Shown here: in pieces, positions 1-21,993 of the stretch
How the letters are laid out: each line of letters starts with the position of its first letter
Numbering within the stretch: position 1 is the first letter of the stretch
Source: Luteimonas kalidii
Lineage (GTDB): Bacteria > Pseudomonadota > Gammaproteobacteria > Xanthomonadales > Xanthomonadaceae
Length of the DNA: 64,000 nucleotides
Reading direction: 5' to 3'
Assembly: GCF_029887935.1 (NCBI RefSeq)
Contig: NZ_JARXRO010000010.1
Coordinates: 291 to 64,290, forward strand
The notes under the pieces: generated by a model
What the model was told of the DNA's origin: nothing
Databases searched by the model: none
The model's input: the letters and a program-made list of their open reading frames with translations, nothing else
Position numbers and translations under genes: made by a program

Positions 1-286
1 GGGCCGACCGCGTAGCGGCCCTGACCGAGGGAAGAGCGATCCTCCGGCGACGGGGCGTGGCGTCTCTCCGAAGTGACACCTCCACCGATGGCGTTTCCAC
101 GGGTTTCTGCACGACGTTCGTAACGATCAAGTCGCGACAGGTCGACGGATCAGCAGCCGGCCATCCCGGCACCGCGACGATCCTGTCGCGCCAGACCGAC
201 ACAAATGTGTCAGCTGAAACTCCCTTGTCACAAAACCTTCGCATCCTGTCGCGACGGCGCCGACCACGCGCCATGACCGTCGACCC
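1..286. other. Non-coding region upstream of gspC
   Basis: No convincing gene is seen before the gspC start. A short inverted repeat (GGGCCG / CGGCCC, positions 1-6 and 16-21) lies at the very edge and may belong to the tail of a gene outside the window. The rest carries repeated CTGTCGCG words and a small ACACAAATGTGT dyad (199-210), so it looks like a promoter region for the secretion operon. Confidence 0.5.
133..253. promoter_or_regulatory. Repeated CTGTCGCG words upstream of gspC
   Basis: The word CTGTCGCG occurs at 183-190 and 246-253 and in inverted orientation (CGCGACAG) at 133-140. The two direct copies extend to the ten-base TCCTGTCGCG and start exactly 63 bp apart, about six helical turns, just before the gspC start at 287. 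This arrangement suggests a regulator binding the operon promoter. No regulator is assigned. Confidence 0.3.
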
Positions 287-4682: not shown

Positions 4683-5874
4683 GTACTCCGCGCTCGACGT
4701 CCAGGGCCACGGCCGCGAGGGCGTGGTCGAGGCGGGCGACGCGATGCAGGCGCGGCGGCTGCTCGAGGGCCGCAAGCTGCTGACCGTGCGGCTGCAGCCG
4801 GCCGGCACGCATGCGGAGCAGGCCACGCCGCGGCGCGGCCGCTTCGGCGCCAGGGACCTGACCCTGCTGACGCGCCAGCTCGCCACGCTGGTGGCGGTGG
4901 CACCGCTGGAGGAAGCGCTGCGCACCATCGGCAGCCAGTCCGAGCGCGCACCGGTGCGGCGGGTGGTGATGGCGATCCATGCCCGCGTGGTCGAAGGCTT
5001 CCGCCTGTCGGATGCGATGGCGCGCGAGCCGCGCGCCTTCCCCCCGCTGTACCGCGCCATGGTCGCCGCCGGTGAAGGCACCGGCGCCCTGCCGGCGATC
5101 CTCGAGCGCCTTGCGGATCTTCACGAGCGCGACCAGCAGGTGCGCGGCAAGCTGGTCTCCGCGCTGGTGTATCCGGCTGCGCTCGCGGTCACCGCGGTCG
5201 GGGTGGTGATCGCGCTGATGGTGTTCGTGGTGCCGAAGGTGGTGGAGCAGTTCGAGTCGATGGGCCGGCAGCTGCCGCTGCTCACGCGCATCGTCATCGG
5301 CGTATCCGAGGTGCTGTCCACCTGGTGGCTGCCGCTGCTGGCGCTGCTGGCGCTCGCCGTGTACGCCGCCACCCGCCTGCTGCGCCGGCCGCCGATCCGC
5401 CGCCGCGCCGATGCCGCGCTGCTGCGCCTGCCGCTGCTCGGCCGGCTGCTGCGCGACGTGCACGCCGCGCGCATGGCGCGCACCCTGGCGACCATGTCCG
5501 ACAGCGGCCTGCCGCTGATCGAAGGCCTGGCGATCACCGCGCGCACCGTCGGCAACACGGTCCTGCGCGAGGCCACCGAGGCGATGGTCGAGGTGATCCG
5601 CGAGGGCGGCAGCCTGTCAAGCGCGATGAAGCGCGCGGCGGTGTTCCCCCCGACCCTGCTGTACATGGCCACCAGCGGCGAGGACAGCGGCCGCCTGGCG
5701 CCGATGCTCGATCGCGCGGCCGATTACCTCGAACGCGAGTTCAACACCTTCACCACGGCGGCGATGAGCCTGCTCGAACCCCTGATCATCATCGTGCTGG
5801 GCGCGATGGTGGCGGTGATCGTGCTCGCGATCCTGCTGCCGATCCTGCAGTTCAACGCCCTCGTGGCCGGCTGA
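4669..5874 (+). CDS. gspF: Type II secretion inner-membrane protein GspF
   Basis: Polytopic inner-membrane platform protein that interacts with GspE and GspL. The 401 residues contain two GspF-family repeats (about 70-190 and 270-395), each followed by hydrophobic membrane segments such as AVTAVGVVIALMVFVVPKV. The N-terminal sequence MPAFEYSALDVQGHGREG matches the family opening. It lies between gspE and gspG, the standard position. The start overlaps the end of gspE. Confidence 0.95.
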   Translation: MPAFEYSALDVQGHGREGVVEAGDAMQARRLLEGRKLLTVRLQPAGTHAEQATPRRGRFGARDLTLLTRQLATLVAVAPLEEALRTIGSQSERAPVRRVVMAIHARVVEGFRLSDAMAREPRAFPPLYRAMVAAGEGTGALPAILERLADLHERDQQVRGKLVSALVYPAALAVTAVGVVIALMVFVVPKVVEQFESMGRQLPLLTRIVIGVSEVLSTWWLPLLALLALAVYAATRLLRRPPIRRRADAALLRLPLLGRLLRDVHAARMARTLATMSDSGLPLIEGLAITARTVGNTVLREATEAMVEVIREGGSLSSAMKRAAVFPPTLLYMATSGEDSGRLAPMLDRAADYLEREFNTFTTAAMSLLEPLIIIVLGAMVAVIVLAILLPILQFNALVAG

Positions 5875-5885
5875 CCGGAGGCCCC

Positions 5886-6335
5886 ATGCACAGCCGCAAC
5901 ACCCGTCCGTTCCATCCGCGCCGCTCCGCCGGCTTCACCCTGGTCGAACTGATGGTCGCGATCGTCATCATCGGCCTGCTGTCCACGGTGGTGATGATCA
6001 ACGTCATGCCCAGCCAGGACCGGGCCATGACCGAGAAGGCGCGCGCCGACATCTCGGTGCTGGAGCAGGCGCTGGAAACCTATCGCCTGGACAACCTCGC
6101 CTATCCCACCAGTGCCCAGGGCCTGGACGCGCTGCTCAGTGCGCCGTCGGGGCTGGCGCGCCCGGAGCGTTACCGCAAGGGCGGCTACATCCGCCGCCTG
6201 CCGGAGGATCCGTGGGGCAACGCCTACCAGTATCGCCAGCCGGGCCGCAGCGGCGGCTTCGACGTGTACTCGTTCGGCGCCGACGGGGCGGATGGTGGCG
6301 ACGGCGACAGCGCCGACATCGGCAACTGGCGCTGA
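5886..6335 (+). CDS. gspG: Major pseudopilin GspG
   Basis: Major pseudopilin of the type II secretion pseudopilus. The 149-residue precursor has a short basic leader, the prepilin peptidase site G|FTLVELM and a hydrophobic N-terminal helix. A C-terminal acidic loop (GADGADGGDGDSADIGNW) matches the calcium-binding loop of GspG. The ATG at 5886 is chosen because it gives a normal leader of about 18 residues. The open frame extends much further upstream only as an overlap with gspF. The prepilin peptidase GspO needed to process it is not in this window. Confidence 0.95.
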   Translation: MHSRNTRPFHPRRSAGFTLVELMVAIVIIGLLSTVVMINVMPSQDRAMTEKARADISVLEQALETYRLDNLAYPTSAQGLDALLSAPSGLARPERYRKGGYIRRLPEDPWGNAYQYRQPGRSGGFDVYSFGADGADGGDGDSADIGNWR

Positions 6336-6344
6336 CTCACAGCC

Positions 6345-6797
6345 ATGCGGCGCGCACGCGGTTTCACCCTGGTCGAGCTGATGGTGACGCTGGCCGTCAT
6401 CGGCCTGGCGGGAGCGACCGTGGCGCTGACGTTGCCCACGGACGACGACGTGCTGGCCGGCGAAGCGGAGACGTTCGCCGCGCGCCTGGCGCATGCGCGC
6501 GACGAGGCGATCCTCGGCATGCGTACGGTGGAAGTTGCCGTGACCACGCGCGGCTACGGGTTCTCGCGTCGCCGCTTCGATGGCTGGCAGCCGCTCGACG
6601 GCCGTGCCTTCGCGCCGGTCGACTGGGACGCGGGCACGCAGCCGCGGCTGCCGCCGGGCGAAGCGCGGCAGGCGTTCCGGTTCGACCCCACGGGGGCGAC
6701 CGAGCCCGGCGCCCTGGTCCTGGTGCGCGAAGGGCGGCGCGCGCGCGTGGCGGTCGATGCCGACGGAACGGTGGTGATCGATGGCCCGGCGCGTTGA
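6345..6797 (+). CDS. gspH: Minor pseudopilin GspH
   Basis: Minor pseudopilin of 150 residues, with a six-residue basic leader (MRRARG) before FTLVELMVTLAVIG, the canonical prepilin peptidase motif with Glu at mature position 5. The rest is a small beta-rich domain typical of GspH/FimT. It follows gspG by 9 bp and overlaps the gspI reading frame by 17 bp if gspI starts at its upstream ATG. Confidence 0.9.
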   Translation: MRRARGFTLVELMVTLAVIGLAGATVALTLPTDDDVLAGEAETFAARLAHARDEAILGMRTVEVAVTTRGYGFSRRRFDGWQPLDGRAFAPVDWDAGTQPRLPPGEARQAFRFDPTGATEPGALVLVREGRRARVAVDADGTVVIDGPAR

Positions 6798-7200
6798 CGT
6801 GCATGCGCCATGCGGCGGCGGGCAGCGCCGCCGTGGCCGCGCCGAGGCCGGCTTCTCGCTGATCGAGATGCTGGTGGCGCTGGCGGTGTTCGCGCTCGCG
6901 GTGCTCGGGCTGCTGAACCTGGCCGGCGAGAGCACGCGCACCGCGGTGGCGATCGAGGAACGCGTGCTGGCCGCGGTGGTCGCCGACACCCTCGCGGTCG
7001 ACGCCGCCACCCTCGACGTGCGCGCACTGTCCGCCGATGCCGGCGGCCGCGAGCACGCGGGTGGCCGCGACTGGCAGTGGACGCGTTCCATCACGCCGAC
7101 CGCCGATCCGGCCCTTCTGCGCGTGGACATCCGGGTCTCGCCACCCGGCGAATCGCGCGTGGCGGCCGAGGTGGCGCTGTTCCGGAGCCTGCCGCGATGA
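6781..7200 (+). CDS. gspI: Minor pseudopilin GspI
   Basis: Minor pseudopilin of the tip complex (GspI-J-K). The frame contains a long basic leader and then AG|FSLIEMLVALAVFALAVLG, a valid prepilin peptidase site with Glu5. The true start may be the GTG at 6799, just after the gspH stop, which would shorten the leader by six residues. The stop overlaps the gspJ start as ATGA. Domain and position both support the call. Confidence 0.9.
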   Translation: MARRVDVHAPCGGGQRRRGRAEAGFSLIEMLVALAVFALAVLGLLNLAGESTRTAVAIEERVLAAVVADTLAVDAATLDVRALSADAGGREHAGGRDWQWTRSITPTADPALLRVDIRVSPPGESRVAAEVALFRSLPR

Positions 7201-7841
7201 GCCGCGCCTGGAATCGCATGCGCAAGCCGCGGCGGTATCCGGCGCCTCGCGCCGCCGGCCGCGGCTTCACCCTGCTCGAGGTGATGGTCGCGCTGGCGCT
7301 GTTCGGCCTGATCGCCGCCGCCGGTGTCGCGGTAATGGGCCATGCGGTCGAAAGCCAGCAGATCCTGCGCGAACGCATGGACCGGCTGGGCGAGTTCCAG
7401 CGCGCGCGCGCCCTGCTCCGCGCCGATCTGTCCCAGGCCGCCGTACGCCTGGTGCGACGCGCCGACGGCAGCAACACCCGCGACGCCTTCGTCGGCGGCC
7501 GTCCCGGCGAATCGGGTCCGCTGTTCGCGTTCGTGCGCCGCGGGCGCGAGAACCCCGAGGCCGCCGCGCGCGCCTCGCTCGAGTACGTCGAATACCGCAT
7601 CGTCGACGGCCGCCTGGAACGCAGCGCACGCGCCGCGGTCGACGGCGCCGCCCCGGCGCCTGCGCGGGTGCTGCTCGACGGCATCACCCGTGCACGCGTG
7701 GCCTACCTCGAGCGTGAGGCGTGGAACGACGGCTGGCACGGCGGGGCCACGGCGTTGCCGGCGGCGGTGGAACTGGAACTGGACCTGGACGCGATCGGCC
7801 GCGTGCGCCAGCGTTTCCTGCTGCCGGTGTCCGCGCCATGA
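7197..7841 (+). CDS. gspJ: Minor pseudopilin GspJ
   Basis: Minor pseudopilin, 214 residues, with the leader ending at GRG|FTLLEVMVALALFG and a larger beta-rich globular domain, as expected for GspJ. The ATG at 7197 is chosen because it overlaps the gspI stop by the ATGA arrangement used throughout this operon. Upstream in-frame starts would lie inside gspI. It overlaps gspK by four bases. Confidence 0.9.
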   Translation: MSRAWNRMRKPRRYPAPRAAGRGFTLLEVMVALALFGLIAAAGVAVMGHAVESQQILRERMDRLGEFQRARALLRADLSQAAVRLVRRADGSNTRDAFVGGRPGESGPLFAFVRRGRENPEAAARASLEYVEYRIVDGRLERSARAAVDGAAPAPARVLLDGITRARVAYLEREAWNDGWHGGATALPAAVELELDLDAIGRVRQRFLLPVSAP

Positions 7842-17094: not shown

Positions 17095-17799
17095 ATGACC
17101 ACCCAACCCCACGACCACATCGTCAAGAGCTACGACGAGGAGCGCCAGCGGCTGATCGGCGAGATCATGCGCATGGGCGAGATGGCGGCATCGCAGCTGG
17201 AGGCCGCGCTGGACGTGGTGGAGCGACGCGACGACAAGGCCGCCGCCCGCATCATCGAGAACGACGAGGCGATCGACGCGCTCGAGCACGAAGTCAGCCA
17301 GGACGTGATGAAGCTGGCGCTGCGCGGGCCGCTGGCGCGGGACCTGCGCGAGATCCTTGCCGCGCTGCGCATCGCGTCCGACATCGAACGCATCGGCGAC
17401 TACGCCGCGAACGTCGCCAAGCGGTCCACCGCGCTCAACGCCTCGCCGCCGCTGCCGCATACGCGCGGGCTCAATGCGCTCGGGCAGCTGGTGGTGCGGC
17501 AGATCCGCGACGTGCTGGCCGCCTACGCGAACAACGACGCCCAGGCCGCGCAGCGGGTGCGCGCGCAGGACGCCGAGGTCGATACGCTGTACACCGGCCT
17601 GTTCCGTGAACTGCTGACCTACATGATGGAGGATGCGCGCGTGATCACGCCCTGCACCCACCTGCTGTTCATGGCAAAGAACCTGGAACGGGTCGGCGAC
17701 CACGCGACCAACATCGCCGAGAACATCTGGTTCCTGGTGCACGGCGACGACGCCCTGCCGCCACGCGAGAAGCGCGACGCCACCAGCGTGGCCACCTGA
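17095..17799 (+). CDS. phoU: Phosphate transport regulator PhoU
   Basis: Negative regulator that connects PstSCAB activity to the PhoR-PhoB two-component system. The 234 residues form two PhoU three-helix repeats. Each carries the metal-cluster motif E/DxxxD: ASDIERIGDYAANV in the first repeat and AKNLERVGDHATNI in the second. It is the last gene of the pst operon, separated from pstB by 139 bp with stem-loops. phoB and phoR are not in the window. Confidence 0.95.
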   Translation: MTTQPHDHIVKSYDEERQRLIGEIMRMGEMAASQLEAALDVVERRDDKAAARIIENDEAIDALEHEVSQDVMKLALRGPLARDLREILAALRIASDIERIGDYAANVAKRSTALNASPPLPHTRGLNALGQLVVRQIRDVLAAYANNDAQAAQRVRAQDAEVDTLYTGLFRELLTYMMEDARVITPCTHLLFMAKNLERVGDHATNIAENIWFLVHGDDALPPREKRDATSVAT

Positions 17800-17944
17800 T
17801 CCCGCGCCGTCCACTCGCGCTGCCCGGCGCCGCGCACTGATGGTGCGCCGCGTCATGACGGCGATCTGACTTCAGCCTGAACACGGGCCGCTGCGCATCG
17901 CGCGCAGCGCCGCGTGGACCTCGACCAGCCCTTAATGTCGCGCT

Positions 17945-17959
17945 GGCCACACTGTGGCC
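17945..17959. promoter_or_regulatory. 15-bp dyad upstream of the bufferin operon
   Basis: GGCCACA-C-TGTGGCC is a perfect inverted repeat with a one-base centre, 128 bp upstream of the precursor start at 18088. The 288-bp phoU-precursor gap holds no other clear signal. It may be an operator for the following operon, but no regulator is identified. Confidence 0.3.
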
Positions 17960-18087
17960 GGCGGCGTCCGGCCGCGTCACGCTCCCCGCCGCCACCGGCA
18001 CCCCGGTGCGTGTCGCGTGCCGCAGCCCACGATCCCGCCCCGTCTTCATCCGTTCGCGGAGCGATCCGCCACCCGAAGGAATCCGTC

Positions 18088-18513
18088 ATGACCCAGTCCA
18101 GCCACAAACCCGCCGCCGTCGCCATCGGAACCGCGCTCGCCGGCGGCCTGCTGCTGTCCGGATCGGCATTCGCCGTCACCCCGCTCGCGCAGGGCTACCT
18201 GCTCGGCGCGCAGGACGCCGCCACCGCCGAGGCCAAGGCGCACGAAGGCCAGTGCGGCGGCGACAAGGCCAAGTCCGAAGGCAAGTGTGGCGAAGGCAAG
18301 TGCGGGATGGAGAAGGCCGACACCGACAAGGACGGCCGCATCTCGCGCGCCGAGTTCGACGCCGCCCACCCCGACAAGGCCGACAAGTTCGCCGGCATCG
18401 ACGCCAACGCCGACGGCTTCATCGACCAGGCCGAACACGATGCGCATTCGGCCGCGCGCAAGACCGACATGGAAGGCAAGTGCGGCGAGGGCAAGTGCGG
18501 CGGCGCCGCCTGA
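18088..18513 (+). CDS. EF-hand bufferin-like RiPP precursor (BufA/HvfA type)
   Basis: Probable secreted, post-translationally modified metal-binding peptide. The 141 residues have a signal peptide (about 1-29, ending SAFA). Five cysteines follow (56, 67, 72, 132, 137). Four of them lie in two identical EGKCGEGKCG blocks at 64-73 and 129-138. Two perfect EF-hand loops lie between the blocks: D78 to E89 (DTDKDGRISRAE) and D105 to E116 (DANADGFIDQAE). EGKCG cysteines next to a DUF692 enzyme are the hallmark of bufferin/HvfA precursors, in which the cysteines become copper-binding heterocycles. The EF-hand pair adds a likely calcium site. GAAGGA precedes the ATG. Modification is inferred, not shown. 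Confidence 0.8.
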   Translation: MTQSSHKPAAVAIGTALAGGLLLSGSAFAVTPLAQGYLLGAQDAATAEAKAHEGQCGGDKAKSEGKCGEGKCGMEKADTDKDGRISRAEFDAAHPDKADKFAGIDANADGFIDQAEHDAHSAARKTDMEGKCGEGKCGGAA

Positions 18514-18536
18514 CGCGCTGACCGCCCCACCCCGCC

Positions 18537-19400
18537 ATGCGCCCCGCCCCGCCGTTGCCGGAGGCGAGCGCGGGCCTCGGCCTGCGGCGCGGACTGCTGT
18601 CCGCGCTGCAGGCGGCCGACCGGGGTACCTTCGATTTCCTCGAATGCGCGCCCGAGAACTGGATCGGCGTCGGCGGGCGTCTTGGCGCCGCCTTCGACGC
18701 CTTGGCCGAACGCCATCCGGTCACCTGCCACGGCCTGTCGCTGTCGCTGGGTGGCGCCGCGCCGCTGGACGAGACCTTCATCGCCCGCGTCGGCCGCTTC
18801 CTCGACCACCACCGCGTTCCGCTGTACAGCGAACACCTGAGCTGGTGCAGCGACGACGGCCACCTGTACGACCTGCTGCCGCTGCCGTTCACCGAGGAAG
18901 CGGTCGAGCATGTGTCGGCGCGCATCCGGCGCGTCCAGGACCTGCTCGGCCGGCGCATCGCGATCGAGAACGTCAGCTACTACGCCGCGCTGCCGGCCGC
19001 CGGCCACGCCACGCTGGACGAGGCGACGTTCGTCAACGCGGTGCTCGAGCGCGCCGACTGCGGCCTGCTGCTGGACGTGAACAACATCCACGTCAACGCG
19101 ACCAACCACCGTTACGACGCGATGGCGTTCCTGCGCCGCATGCCCTCGGAACGCATCGCCTGCTACCACGTCGCCGGACACCACGACGAGGCCGCGGACC
19201 TGAAGGTCGACACCCACGGCGCCGCGGTGCGCGACTCGGTGTGGGACCTGCTGGCCGAGGCCTATCGCGTGCACGGCGTGCGCCCGACGCTGCTCGAGCG
19301 CGACTTCAATTTCCCCCCGTTCGAACAGCTGCTGGGCGAGGTCGACGGCATCCGCCGCCTGCAGCAGGCCGGCGATCCGGCGCGCCAGGCGCATGGCTGA
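18537..19400 (+). CDS. DUF692 multinuclear non-heme iron oxygenase (BufB/HvfB type)
   Basis: Predicted MNIO enzyme that oxidatively modifies cysteines of the adjacent precursor. The 287 residues form a TIM-barrel-type DUF692 protein with family motifs in order: [57 protein letters not shown] and LLERD. The His, Glu, Asp and Asn residues of these motifs are the usual iron ligands. It follows the precursor by 23 bp and overlaps the DUF2063 gene by 8 bp, matching bufB/hvfB order. Family assignment is strong; the exact chemistry is inferred. Confidence 0.85.
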
Positions 19401-20178
19401 GTCCACCTCGCGAGCGTCGCTGCGCGAGCAGCAGTTCGCGCTGTCGCGCCACCTGCGCGATCCGGCGACCGGGCCGGCGCCAGCCGGCATCGAGGACCGG
19501 CGCCTGGCGATCTATCGCGACCTGCTCTACAACAACCTGCAGAGCCTGCTGGCCGGCAACTTCCCGGTGATCCGCCGCACCCTCCCCGATGGGGACTGGC
19601 ACGCGCTGGTACGCGCGTTCTACGCCGGCCACCGCTGCCGCACCCCGCTGTTCACCGAGATCGGCCGCGAGTTCGTGCGCTGGCTGGAGGCGCGCATCGA
19701 CGCCGATCCGGGGCTTCCACCGTGGCAGGCGGAACTGGCGCACTACGAATGGGTGGAGCTGGCGCTGCAGATCTCCGACGCCGAGGCCGGGCCGGTCGAC
19801 CCGCTCGAGGGCGATCCCCGGCGCGGGGTGGCGCTGCTTGAGGGGGTTCCGGTGGTGTCGCCCCAGGCCTGGGCACTGGCCTACCGCTGGCCGGTCCACC
19901 GGATCGGGCCCGGCCACCTGCCGCAGACCGCGCCCGAGGCGCCCACCCTGCTGCTGGTGCGCCGCGACGGCGGCGGCGAGGTCCGCTTCGCCGAGCTCTC
20001 GCCGCTGGTGTTCCGTCTGCTCGAACTGCTGCACGGCGGAACCGCGACCGGGCATGGCTGCCTGTGCACACTGGCGCAGGAGGCCGGGCTCGGCCCCGAC
20101 GCGCTGCTCGCCGAGGGCCGCGCCATGCTCGAGCGGCTGCATGCCGAAGGCACGCTGCTGGGCGTGCGCCCCGGCTGA
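19393..20178 (+). CDS. DUF2063 RiPP partner protein (BufC/HvfC type)
   Basis: Partner protein thought to present the precursor peptide to the MNIO enzyme. The 261 residues open with the DUF2063 domain ([14 protein letters not shown], then [25 protein letters not shown]), which characterizes these operons. A C-terminal winged-helix-like region follows (about 190-261). Overlap with the upstream gene indicates co-translation. The DoxX-type membrane gene that often ends such operons is absent here; the next gene is RNase T. Confidence 0.8.
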
Positions 20179-20304
20179 GAACGGGCGCGACGCCGCTCCG
20201 CGGGGCGCCGTTCGCGTTGGCGGTCGCGATACCGCCCCATGTCGCACGGTGCGACGATCGCGGGCCGGATCCTGCGCGAAATGCGCCTCTGCTAGTCTTC
20301 CGCG

Positions 20305-20934
20305 ATGGATCCCGCCGTCGCCCCCAGCCCCGCCGCCAGCCCTCTCGCCAAACGCTTCCGCGGGTACCTGCCGGTGGTGGTGGACGTGGAAACCGGCGGC
20401 TTCGACTGGAACCGCCACGCGCTGCTCGAGATCGCGGTGGTCCCGATCGACGTCGACGCCGATGGCGCGCTGATCCTCGACACCCCCGCGAGCGCGCATG
20501 TGGTGCCCGCGCCGGGGACCCAGATCGACCCGCAGTCGCTGGAAGTGACCGGGATCGACCTCGACCACCCGTTCCGCTTCGCCAAGCCGGAGCGCGAGGC
20601 GCTCGACCACGTGTTCGCCACCGTCCGCGCGGCGGTGAAGAAGCACGGCTGCCAGCGCGCCATCCTGGTCGGCCACAACGCGCACTTCGACCTCAACTTC
20701 GTCAACGCCGCGGTCGCGCGCAGCGGGCACAAGCGCAATCCCTTCCACCCCTTCAGCGTATTCGACACCGTGACCCTGGCCGGCGTGGCCTACGGCCAGA
20801 CCGTGCTGGCGCGCGCCGTGCAGGCCGCGGGGTTCGCGTGGAGCAGCGAGGACGCGCATTCGGCGCTGTACGACGCCGAGCAGACGGCGAAGCTGTTCTG
20901 CAACATCGTCAACGCGTGGCCACCGCGCGCCTGA
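20305..20934 (+). CDS. rnt: Ribonuclease T
   Basis: 3'-5' exoribonuclease of the DEDDh family that trims tRNA and other stable RNA 3' ends. The 209 residues contain [10 protein letters not shown] (first Asp and Glu), [13 protein letters not shown] (second Asp) and the final His/Asp pair in [16 protein letters not shown], plus the RNase T-specific [10 protein letters not shown] segment. Standalone gene preceded by 126 bp without features. Confidence 0.92.
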
Positions 20935-21021: not shown

Positions 21022-21993
21022 ATGCCGATCACACGCGCGAAGGCGAGCCGCCTGCTCAACCAGGCCGAAATGGCGCTCTACGACGACAGCCGCGCGAACG
21101 GTCTGCGCAAGCTCGATTCCCGGGCACTGACGTCGCGGGTCAAGCGCGCACGCACCGCGCGCGACCGGGCGCGCGACCTGGTGCAGAAGCACAAGCTGGC
21201 CTCGCGGGCCCGCACCGGCAGCAAGCGAGGCGGCAGCGGCGAGGCGAACCAGCGCAGCAAGGACAAGGCCGAGCTGATGGCCGACATCCTCAAGCGCTTC
21301 GAACAGCAGCTCAAGGACGTGCAGCGTGCGGAGCGCGACGATGCCAGGGCCGCCGCGAAGCAGGCCAAGGGCAAGTCTGCGACCCGTGCCTCCGCGTCCG
21401 GCAGGGCCAGCGGGCGCGCATCGGCCGCCAAGGCGGCGGGCAGGAAGACGGCTTCCGCGAAGAAGACTGCTGCGAAGACTGGCGCGAAGAAGACTGGCGC
21501 GAAGAGGACTGGCGCGAAGAAGACGGTTACGAAGAAGCCGGTTACGAGGAAGCAGGCTGCGAAGACCGCTGCGCCGAAGAAGGCGAGCGCGGCGGGTAAA
21601 GGTTCCGCGAGCAAGCGGGCTACCCGGACGACGACCGGCGCTGCCCGCGCCACGAAGCCCGCAGCGTCCGGGCGCACGAGGTCCGGGGGCGGATCGACGG
21701 CCGGCAGGAAGGCCTCGCGCAAGCGTCGCATCACGCCCGAGCAGGCGCTGGAGCAGACCCGCGCGCTGCTCGAAGCCAAGCAGGCGCACGATGCCGAGCC
21801 CAAGCCGTGGCAGGACCTGCCTGCCGGCCCGACCGATGCCGGCGAGCCCGGATTCCAGTCCGACGCCGCGGCTCGGCGCGCAAAGCGCCTGCACGCTGCC
21901 GAGGTCCGCCTGCCCGCCAACCAGGGCAGCATCAGCACCCGCGACCGCATCAACCAGGGCAAGCGCGATCATCGCGGCGACACCGGCGACTGA
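21022..21993 (+). CDS. Lys/Ala-rich histone H1-like protein
   Basis: A protein of 323 residues with no recognized enzyme domain. The N-terminal 110 residues look helical (LLNQAEMALYDDSRANGLRKL, coiled-coil-like KRFEQQLKDVQRAERDD). Residues about 115-245 are a low-complexity Lys/Ala/Arg/Thr tail resembling AlgP or eukaryotic H1. The C-terminus is conserved-looking (ITPEQALEQTRALLEAKQ). DNA or RNA binding is likely from charge. The ATG at 21022 is preceded by GGAG; an upstream GTG is less likely. Homologues in Xanthomonads are usually annotated as hypothetical. Confidence 0.75.
   Translation: MPITRAKASRLLNQAEMALYDDSRANGLRKLDSRALTSRVKRARTARDRARDLVQKHKLASRARTGSKRGGSGEANQRSKDKAELMADILKRFEQQLKDVQRAERDDARAAAKQAKGKSATRASASGRASGRASAAKAAGRKTASAKKTAAKTGAKKTGAKRTGAKKTVTKKPVTRKQAAKTAAPKKASAAGKGSASKRATRTTTGAARATKPAASGRTRSGGGSTAGRKASRKRRITPEQALEQTRALLEAKQAHDAEPKPWQDLPAGPTDAGEPGFQSDAAARRAKRLHAAEVRLPANQGSISTRDRINQGKRDHRGDTGD
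21479..21528 (+). repeat. 15-bp tandem repeat coding KTGAK units
   Basis: Three near-perfect copies of a 15-bp unit (ACTGGCGCGAAGAAG) encode repeated KTGAK pentapeptides in the basic tail of the H1-like protein, with degenerate copies on both sides. Because the unit is a multiple of three, copy-number change would alter tail length without frameshift. Confidence 0.6.

Follow-up and report, generated by a model that had tools for sequence, protein, structure and literature searches.

A three-gene EGKCG operon between phoU and rnt

The 64,000-nucleotide stretch of Luteimonas kalidii DNA analysed here (the window) carries a three-gene operon in a slot bordered by phoU and rnt (Table 1). The first gene encodes a precursor protein in which two EF-hand loops lie between two EGKCGEGKCG blocks, an arrangement that a first-pass annotation of this DNA had placed at exact coordinates. 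The five cysteines reported there are residues 56, 67, 72, 132 and 137, of which C56 belongs to a degenerate EGQCG motif that is missing from some relatives, such as P0022. Profile searches matched the precursor, in two stretches each, to EF-hand_5 (PF13202 in Pfam; 30.0 bits, cut-off 25.9) and to KCGExKCG_twice (NF050137 in NCBIfam; 41.1, cut-off 19.5), and the calcium-ligand positions of both loops are canonical by sequence. No BufA or DUF2282 match of the precursor was listed in the Pfam and NCBIfam search, and no solved structure matching its sequence was found.

Table 1. Features of the operon and its borders in the window
Feature	Nucleotides	Precursor residues	Strand	Basis
phoU, final gene of the pst cluster, bordering the slot on the left	17095..17799		+	PF01895, 156.8 bits
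CTTAATGTCGC (17931-17941), then perfect palindrome GGCCACACTGTGGCC (17945-17959)	17931..17959		+	motif comparison within the genus
Precursor gene, 141 aa	18088-18513		+	Pfam and NCBIfam profile matches; motif reading
Sec-like signal peptide		1-29	+	judged by eye: hydrophobic stretch, AFA-V
Degenerate motif EGQCG with C56 (fifth Cys)	18244..18258	53-57	+	sequence
N-terminal EGKCGEGKCG block	18277..18306	64-73	+	sequence; best NF050137 stretch 48-74
EF-hand loop 1, DTDKDGRISRAE	18319..18354	78-89	+	PF13202/PF00036; AlphaFold2 block means 74 (71-80) and 90 (81-90)
EF-hand loop 2, DANADGFIDQAE	18400..18435	105-116	+	second PF13202 stretch; AlphaFold2 block means 90 and 88
C-terminal EGKCGEGKCG block, highest conservation in the precursor	18472..18501	129-138	+	homologue and slot comparison
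HvfB-type MNIO (DUF692) maturase, 287 aa	18537..19400		+	PF05114, 338.9 bits, E 2.4e-101; NF003818
HvfC-type DUF2063/RRE partner, 261 aa	19393..20178		+	PF09836, PF22106; NF050145
rnt (RNase T-like exonuclease), bordering the slot on the right	20305..20934		+	PF00929, 63 bits

As previously annotated, the MNIO gene starts 23 nt past the precursor stop and the DUF2063 gene overlaps the MNIO gene; the overlap measures 8 nt. The label 'bufferin-type RiPP operon' held in part. The type of operon (MNIO, DUF2063 and EGKCG genes) stands, but the profile searches that the annotation proposed for the three proteins returned KCGExKCG, DUF692/HvfB and DUF2063/HvfC matches, with the bufferin models below cut-off. 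The MNIO exceeds the cut-off of the HvfB model NF003818 (416.2 against 360), the DUF2063 protein that of the HvfC model NF050145 (280.3 against 142), and the bufferin maturase (BufB) model NF050167 gives the MNIO 266.0, below its cut-off of 310; 'oxazolin/EGKCG-type' is therefore the more exact name. The Pfam match of the MNIO is MbnB_TglH_ChrH, and among PDB entries it matched 3bww (4.2e-79) and MbnB 7tcr (6.6e-8), with 3dee (1.6e-6) matched by the DUF2063 protein. The operon contains no DoxX gene, also in agreement with the annotation, and the only DoxX (PF07681) match of the genome at E ≤ 0.001 lies on another contig.

Contig 15 of the same genome (197000-209000, locus L102) encodes, at about 5600-7800 of that locus, a canonical BufA2 precursor (NF050166, 102.4 against a cut-off of 60) with its own MNIO. 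The same locus also carries a divergent small Cys-containing secreted protein that adjoins the genome's only DoxX match.

An AlphaFold2 model of the precursor, built with 89 sequences, has a mean pLDDT of 59.4, a low overall value that is uninformative on arms with metal bound. Block means over residues 71-120 are 74, 90, 87, 90 and 88, so the EF pair is modelled with confidence, and values fall below 50 in the N-terminal block up to residue 71 and in most of the C-terminal block. The helix that leads into loop 1 comprises only residues 74-77 in this model, directly after C72-G73, and the last helix extends from residue 114 to 131. The model thus suggests a folded EF-hand module carrying two flexible arms.

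Upstream of the operon, the element at 17931-17959 offers a weak lead to a possible promoter or operator. The exact CTTAATGTCGC recurs in three loci of the same genus (L007, L106 and L107), where the counterpart of GGCCACACTGTGGCC is a perfect palindrome in L106 and L107 and an imperfect one in L007. A scan of 17700-20400 for sigma-70 promoters found none. Beyond rnt, window positions 21023-21993 encode a Lys/Ala/Thr-rich protein with repeats such as AKKTGAKRTGAKKT, resembling a histone H1 tail.

Likeness to described EGKCG and EF-hand proteins

The annotation's doubt whether EF-hand members of this class were already known was justified: EF-hand/EGKCG chimaeras (Buf_EGKCG|EF-hand_5) were described by Antoine et al. 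2025 (PMC12452194). These share with the window the EGKCG motifs, two EF-hand_5 domains, and MNIO and DUF2063 genes after the precursor, and their cysteine domain is predicted to be unstructured. As that paper puts it, the EF-hands are joined C-terminally to a short EGKCG domain, whereas the window precursor has a further, better conserved block after the EF-hands. The accessible text of PMC12452194 has no occurrence of phoU, and in the accessible literature, supplementary tables and subscription journals aside, we found no description of a block after the EF-hands or of the phoU-rnt slot. Precursors with motifs on both sides of the EF pair ('sandwich' proteins) may nevertheless be among the proteins counted in that study. 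Given the published chimaeras and EfhP, the EF-hand/EGKCG idea itself is not new; the both-ends layout and the usual phoU-rnt slot appear to be an undescribed arrangement of an already described kind.

As portrayed in the accessible parts of PMC4053335, PMC9132961 and PMC11559002, EfhP (PA4107) of Pseudomonas aeruginosa resembles the window precursor in its two EF-hands, predicted export, EGKCG repeats (four in PMC11559002) and operon with DUF692 and DUF2063 genes. Among the best 80 of 170 confirmed loci from a scan of named genomes, all 28 Pseudomonas relatives have EGKCG confined to the region ahead of the EF pair, with a spacing of 9 residues to loop 1, and lack a C-terminal block; the three that were printed (L154, L157 and L169) end like NGKKMPKGLFEHLKDQDGA. 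The window precursor differs from these relatives in a spacing of 6 rather than 9, in its C-terminal block and in lacking an NGKKMPKGLF-like tail, marks of the EfhP type that are read off the 28 relatives and not off a published definition or PA4107. A spacing of 9 was rejected as the sole mark of the EfhP lineage, since sandwich proteins show it too (L069 and L070 in the slot, L090, L091 and, by one count, L057).

Neither an MNIO nor an HvfC match was found near the 28 Pseudomonas loci in the DNA examined, which agrees with a statement on P. fluorescens Pf0-1 in the accessible part of PMC4053335. Intact EGKCG repeats without a nearby MNIO/HvfC match were thus observed at L154, L157-L175, L177-L182, L185 and L189 (Pseudomonas) and also at L089, where no MNIO match lies within 12 kb. 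EfhP-like proteins of the window's own family occur off the phoU slot, without a C-terminal block in L077, L084, L089, L098, L099 and L100 and with one in L090 and L091. Such an off-slot copy coexists with a sandwich copy in the slot in genomes G038 and G045, and with a slot copy lacking the C-terminal block in G102. The MNIO tree includes seven rows for off-slot EfhP-like loci. Six of them cluster in a single starred group, and L084, on a long branch, lies outside it.

Two further systems resemble the window operon, as far as the accessible parts of their descriptions go. The oxazolin system HvfABC(X) of Haemophilus influenzae (PMC13419390) shares the HvfB- and HvfC-model enzymes and an AEGKCGEGKCG sequence toward the precursor C-terminus. 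It differs in having HvfX (DoxX), missing from the window operon, and in HvfA, against whose equivalog model NF050188 the window precursor scores 31.8, below the cut-off of 95. Fontiphorin FonABC and other captophorins (PMC13097082) share an MNIO with a DUF2063-type partner and EGKCG repeats, and are described as carrying 5-thiooxazole and binding copper. The accessible parts of both papers now assign the heterocycle of such cysteines as 5-thiooxazole, an absorbance near 305 nm is on record for oxazolin, and PMC13097082 reports that FonBC modified a two-repeat EGKCG peptide (loss of 8 Da) and not a one-repeat peptide. Each block of the window precursor is likewise a pair of EGKCG repeats. The term EF-hand does not occur in the main text of PMC13419390 or of PMC13097082.

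Layout and conservation of the precursor

Homologues were collected with the window precursor as query (set 1, the best 120 of 894 relatives at E ≤ 0.001) and with the L057 precursor, from another family of the class (set 2, the best 120 of 6819 relatives). EGKCG-like motifs flank two EF loops on both sides in 114 of the 120 proteins of set 1; in four of the others a single recognised loop has motifs on both sides, one protein has them only after and one only before. The same layout is found in 80 of the 120 proteins of set 2, with 33 having no EF loop and seven showing other arrangements.

The C-terminal end is the more constant of the two motif-bearing regions near the window. A tandem EGKCGEGKCG lies within the last 16 residues of 82 of 95 slot precursors (69 with and 26 without the EF pair), and at least one motif is found at the end of 93, the exceptions being L092 and L255, the latter a scoring artefact from a wrong frame. 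By comparison, a tandem precedes the EF pair in 43 of the 69 EF-bearing slot precursors. Of 117 matches listed for set 1, 110 have a tandem after the EF pair and 68 have one before it; among those listed for set 2 the values are nearly equal (73 and 72 of 84), and only the window's kin thus show the difference.

The window precursor was compared with six close relatives codon cell by codon cell, and silent and amino-acid differences were counted. In 60 cells of the C-terminal block, 5 differences are silent and none changes an amino acid, compared with 13 and 4 in 54 for the N-terminal block, 32 and 32 in 201 for the linker before it, and, in 72 cells each, 12 and 7 for loop 1 and 11 and 8 for loop 2. 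We read the C-terminal tandem block, the best conserved stretch of the precursor, as the probable core substrate.

A recent internal duplication of the block was considered and rejected, as the copies of the 65-nt repeat that encloses the blocks share only 71% identity. Together with the occurrence of several blocks in EF-less relatives, this makes an EF module set inside a repeat precursor the simpler view. Four homologues (P0134, P0135, P0146 and P0158) have two EF-hand regions with EGKCG-like motifs also between them, a layout that suggests repeated insertion or duplication of the module.

Occupancy of the phoU-rnt slot

The usual position of the operon in the family is between phoU and rnt. 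After 13 loci without a PhoU match were dropped from 100 fetched, 87 slots remained, each defined by its PhoU match: 40 hold EF loops and EGKCG, 26 EGKCG only, 20 neither and one EF loops only, counts that do not measure prevalence, since a precursor match had guided the choice of 27 of the slots. These 27 comprise 24 with both features and three with EGKCG only. The other 60 were reached through PhoU matches, mostly in genomes without a previously seen precursor, and comprise 16 with both features, 23 with EGKCG only, 20 empty slots and the single EF-only case.

The motif and its enzymes are co-inherited. Within the locus DNA examined, EGKCG, MNIO and HvfC are all present in 66 of the 87 slots and all absent in 21, with no mixed case, although one of the 21 (L241), having only 44 bp downstream, is uninformative. 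An exact EGKCG frame lies between phoU and the MNIO gene in each of the 66 enzyme-bearing slots, and no forward frame of at least 40 aa with an M start and the motif was found in eight long or open empty slots. Within the genus, 32 loci were examined from 41 genomes searched; the operon is present in 12, with a fewest-changes count of 4 on the PhoU tree, a scoring in which L113 is absent on a 1.5-kb flank and its nearest tree row, L112, has the operon.

When named genomes were scanned, 170 loci were confirmed, the best 80 of which divide into 26 with motifs on both sides of the EF pair, 31 with motifs only before it and 23 encoding other EF-hand proteins. In 20 of the 26 sandwich loci, PstB, PhoU, MNIO and HvfC lie beside the precursor, and 19 of these 20 also have rnt; they come from Luteimonas, Pseudoxanthomonas, Vulcaniibacterium, Thermomonas, Lysobacter and two less precisely named MAGs. 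Within the family, L075, L090 and L091 encode sandwich proteins without PhoU in the DNA examined, and PhoU lies about 3.6 kb upstream of the operon in L031.

Two loci have unusual precursor genes. In L255 (genome G214), a stop codon interrupts an EF-less precursor between its signal peptide and EGKCG block, with MNIO and HvfC present, reflecting either a recent pseudogene or a sequence error. In genome G239 (L277 1490-2884, also L024), an EF-hand precursor runs in frame into the MNIO as one 465-aa frame, possibly a natural substrate-enzyme fusion, with a sequence error as the alternative; no other genome among the loci scanned has such a run-on.

Modularity of the EF-hand pair

On an MNIO tree of 99 slot rows (72 with and 27 without the EF pair), made by a quick method that leaves many branches open, the EF state changes at least 7 times, a count that carries no direction of gain or loss; the starred branches alone force 5 changes under the EF-less label. 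The tree neighbours L238, without the EF pair, and L030, with it (support 93), have a common signal peptide and C-terminal end, and the position of the EF pair in L030 is taken by further EGKCG repeats in L238.

The EF-only slot, L251 (the stretch also sampled as L191, genome G199), encodes two intact loops with no EGKCG and no slot MNIO or HvfC. Its genome has two other MNIOs, which are 38 and 37% identical to the window MNIO and 50 and 46% identical to the Buf2-type enzyme of the window genome, and one of them lies beside a Buf2-like precursor. Because these are closer to the Buf2 type, the HvfB-type enzyme and the motif are missing together there, with the EF pair present. The L251 protein is possibly a relic or a repurposed calcium protein, and the EF pair may therefore have a job of its own.

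Since 26 of the 66 enzyme-bearing slots lack the EF pair, copper binding should not need it, and its absence from many sister operons argues against an obligatory calcium role. The strict position of the EF pair beside the N-terminal EGKCG in near relatives nevertheless leaves a coupling of calcium to copper possible.

Proposed function of the operon

The window precursor is probably a periplasmic RiPP protein of the oxazolin/EGKCG ('captophorin') kind that would bind copper through thiooxazoles and carry an optional module folded by calcium. By analogy with published relatives, the HvfB-like MNIO and its HvfC partner would convert EGKCG cysteines into 5-thiooxazoles in the cytoplasm, with the C-terminal tandem block serving as core substrate. 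Four sites would most likely be modified, with C56 possibly a fifth, at a loss of about 4 Da per site. The precursor would then be exported by Sec, and its thiooxazoles would bind Cu(I); the same relatives suggest that the product would also bind calcium. Because Sec takes only unfolded substrates and the cytoplasm contains little calcium, folding on calcium can naturally be expected after export. The EF pair would be unfolded in the cytoplasm, would fold on calcium in the periplasm, and would join two flexible thiooxazole arms to a single compact body.

A stronger role for calcium, in which it re-orients the EF pair, brings the thiooxazole arms together or apart and so sets copper affinity or release, is conceivable but doubtful. 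Beyond the two-sided layout of set 1, the register near the window speaks for such a clamp: among the matches listed for set 1, the last N-terminal cysteine precedes loop 1 by 6 residues in all 116 two-loop homologues that bear an N-terminal cysteine, the loops are 27 residues apart in 116 of 117, and the modelled helix entering loop 1 follows the N-terminal block directly. The relative EfhP, predicted to be periplasmic, binds calcium at 13.7 µM with a conformational change, according to the accessible part of PMC9132961. Away from the window's near relatives, however, the register is less strict. The spacing of 6 is found in only 28 of the 40 slot proteins with an EF pair (nine have other values and three no N-terminal cysteine) and in 64 of 84 matches listed for set 2, where the loops are 24 apart in 79 of 84. 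The C-terminal arm follows loop 2 at a variable 9-35 residues, and the EF pair was gained or lost repeatedly. With comparable reserve we put forward the EF pair as a hinge, whose calcium folding, possible only after export, might switch on or tune copper binding.

It is unlikely that the protein is instead a calcium sensor of the EfhP kind, signalling periplasmic calcium to iron or other regulons and using its thiooxazoles for metal sensing and not copper storage. In the accessible part of PMC11559002, EfhP controls calcium-dependent transcription of iron-uptake genes and its authors suggest iron sensing; in addition, L251 keeps two intact loops without EGKCG or slot enzymes. The window protein, however, departs from the Pseudomonas relatives in all three marks given above, and the EF-only state is found in just one of 87 slots.

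That the operon belongs to the Pho response, as its position after pst-phoU might imply, is very unlikely, even with PstB and PhoU beside it in 20 of the 26 sandwich loci. Without the operon, phoU and rnt are direct neighbours, 56 to 813 nt apart in 16 of the 20 empty slots (no rnt was seen in the other four) and 92 to 539 nt apart in 13 of the 20 genus loci that lack it; an old gene order therefore explains the adjacency of operon and phoU, and a phosphate tie was dropped as the main reading. Moreover, six of the 26 sandwich loci have no PhoU (L156, L183 from Dokdonella, L184, L186 from Tahibacter, L188 and L192), and in L186 and L188 the operon lies beside rnt all the same. Least probable is that the EGKCG blocks stay unmodified as plain thiol or low-complexity tails, since, although modification is invisible in sequence, all 66 EGKCG-bearing slot operons carry MNIO and HvfC, and homologous operons make thiooxazoles according to the accessible parts of PMC13097082 and PMC13419390.

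A thiooxazole copper-binding protein with an optional EF-hand module thus remains our preferred reading. The comparison sets the sandwich proteins of the phoU slot apart from the EfhP-like ones, and moves the focus to the C-terminal block, away from the N-terminal EGKCG domain that published accounts emphasise. The slot itself is a natural experiment, in which related bacteria have, in the same place, the operon with the EF pair, the operon without it, no operon, or the EF pair alone, and such matched pairs make the role of calcium for a copper-binding RiPP directly testable. If the EF pair does act as a hinge, these bacteria would add or remove a calcium switch by way of an EF module inside one otherwise fixed operon slot.
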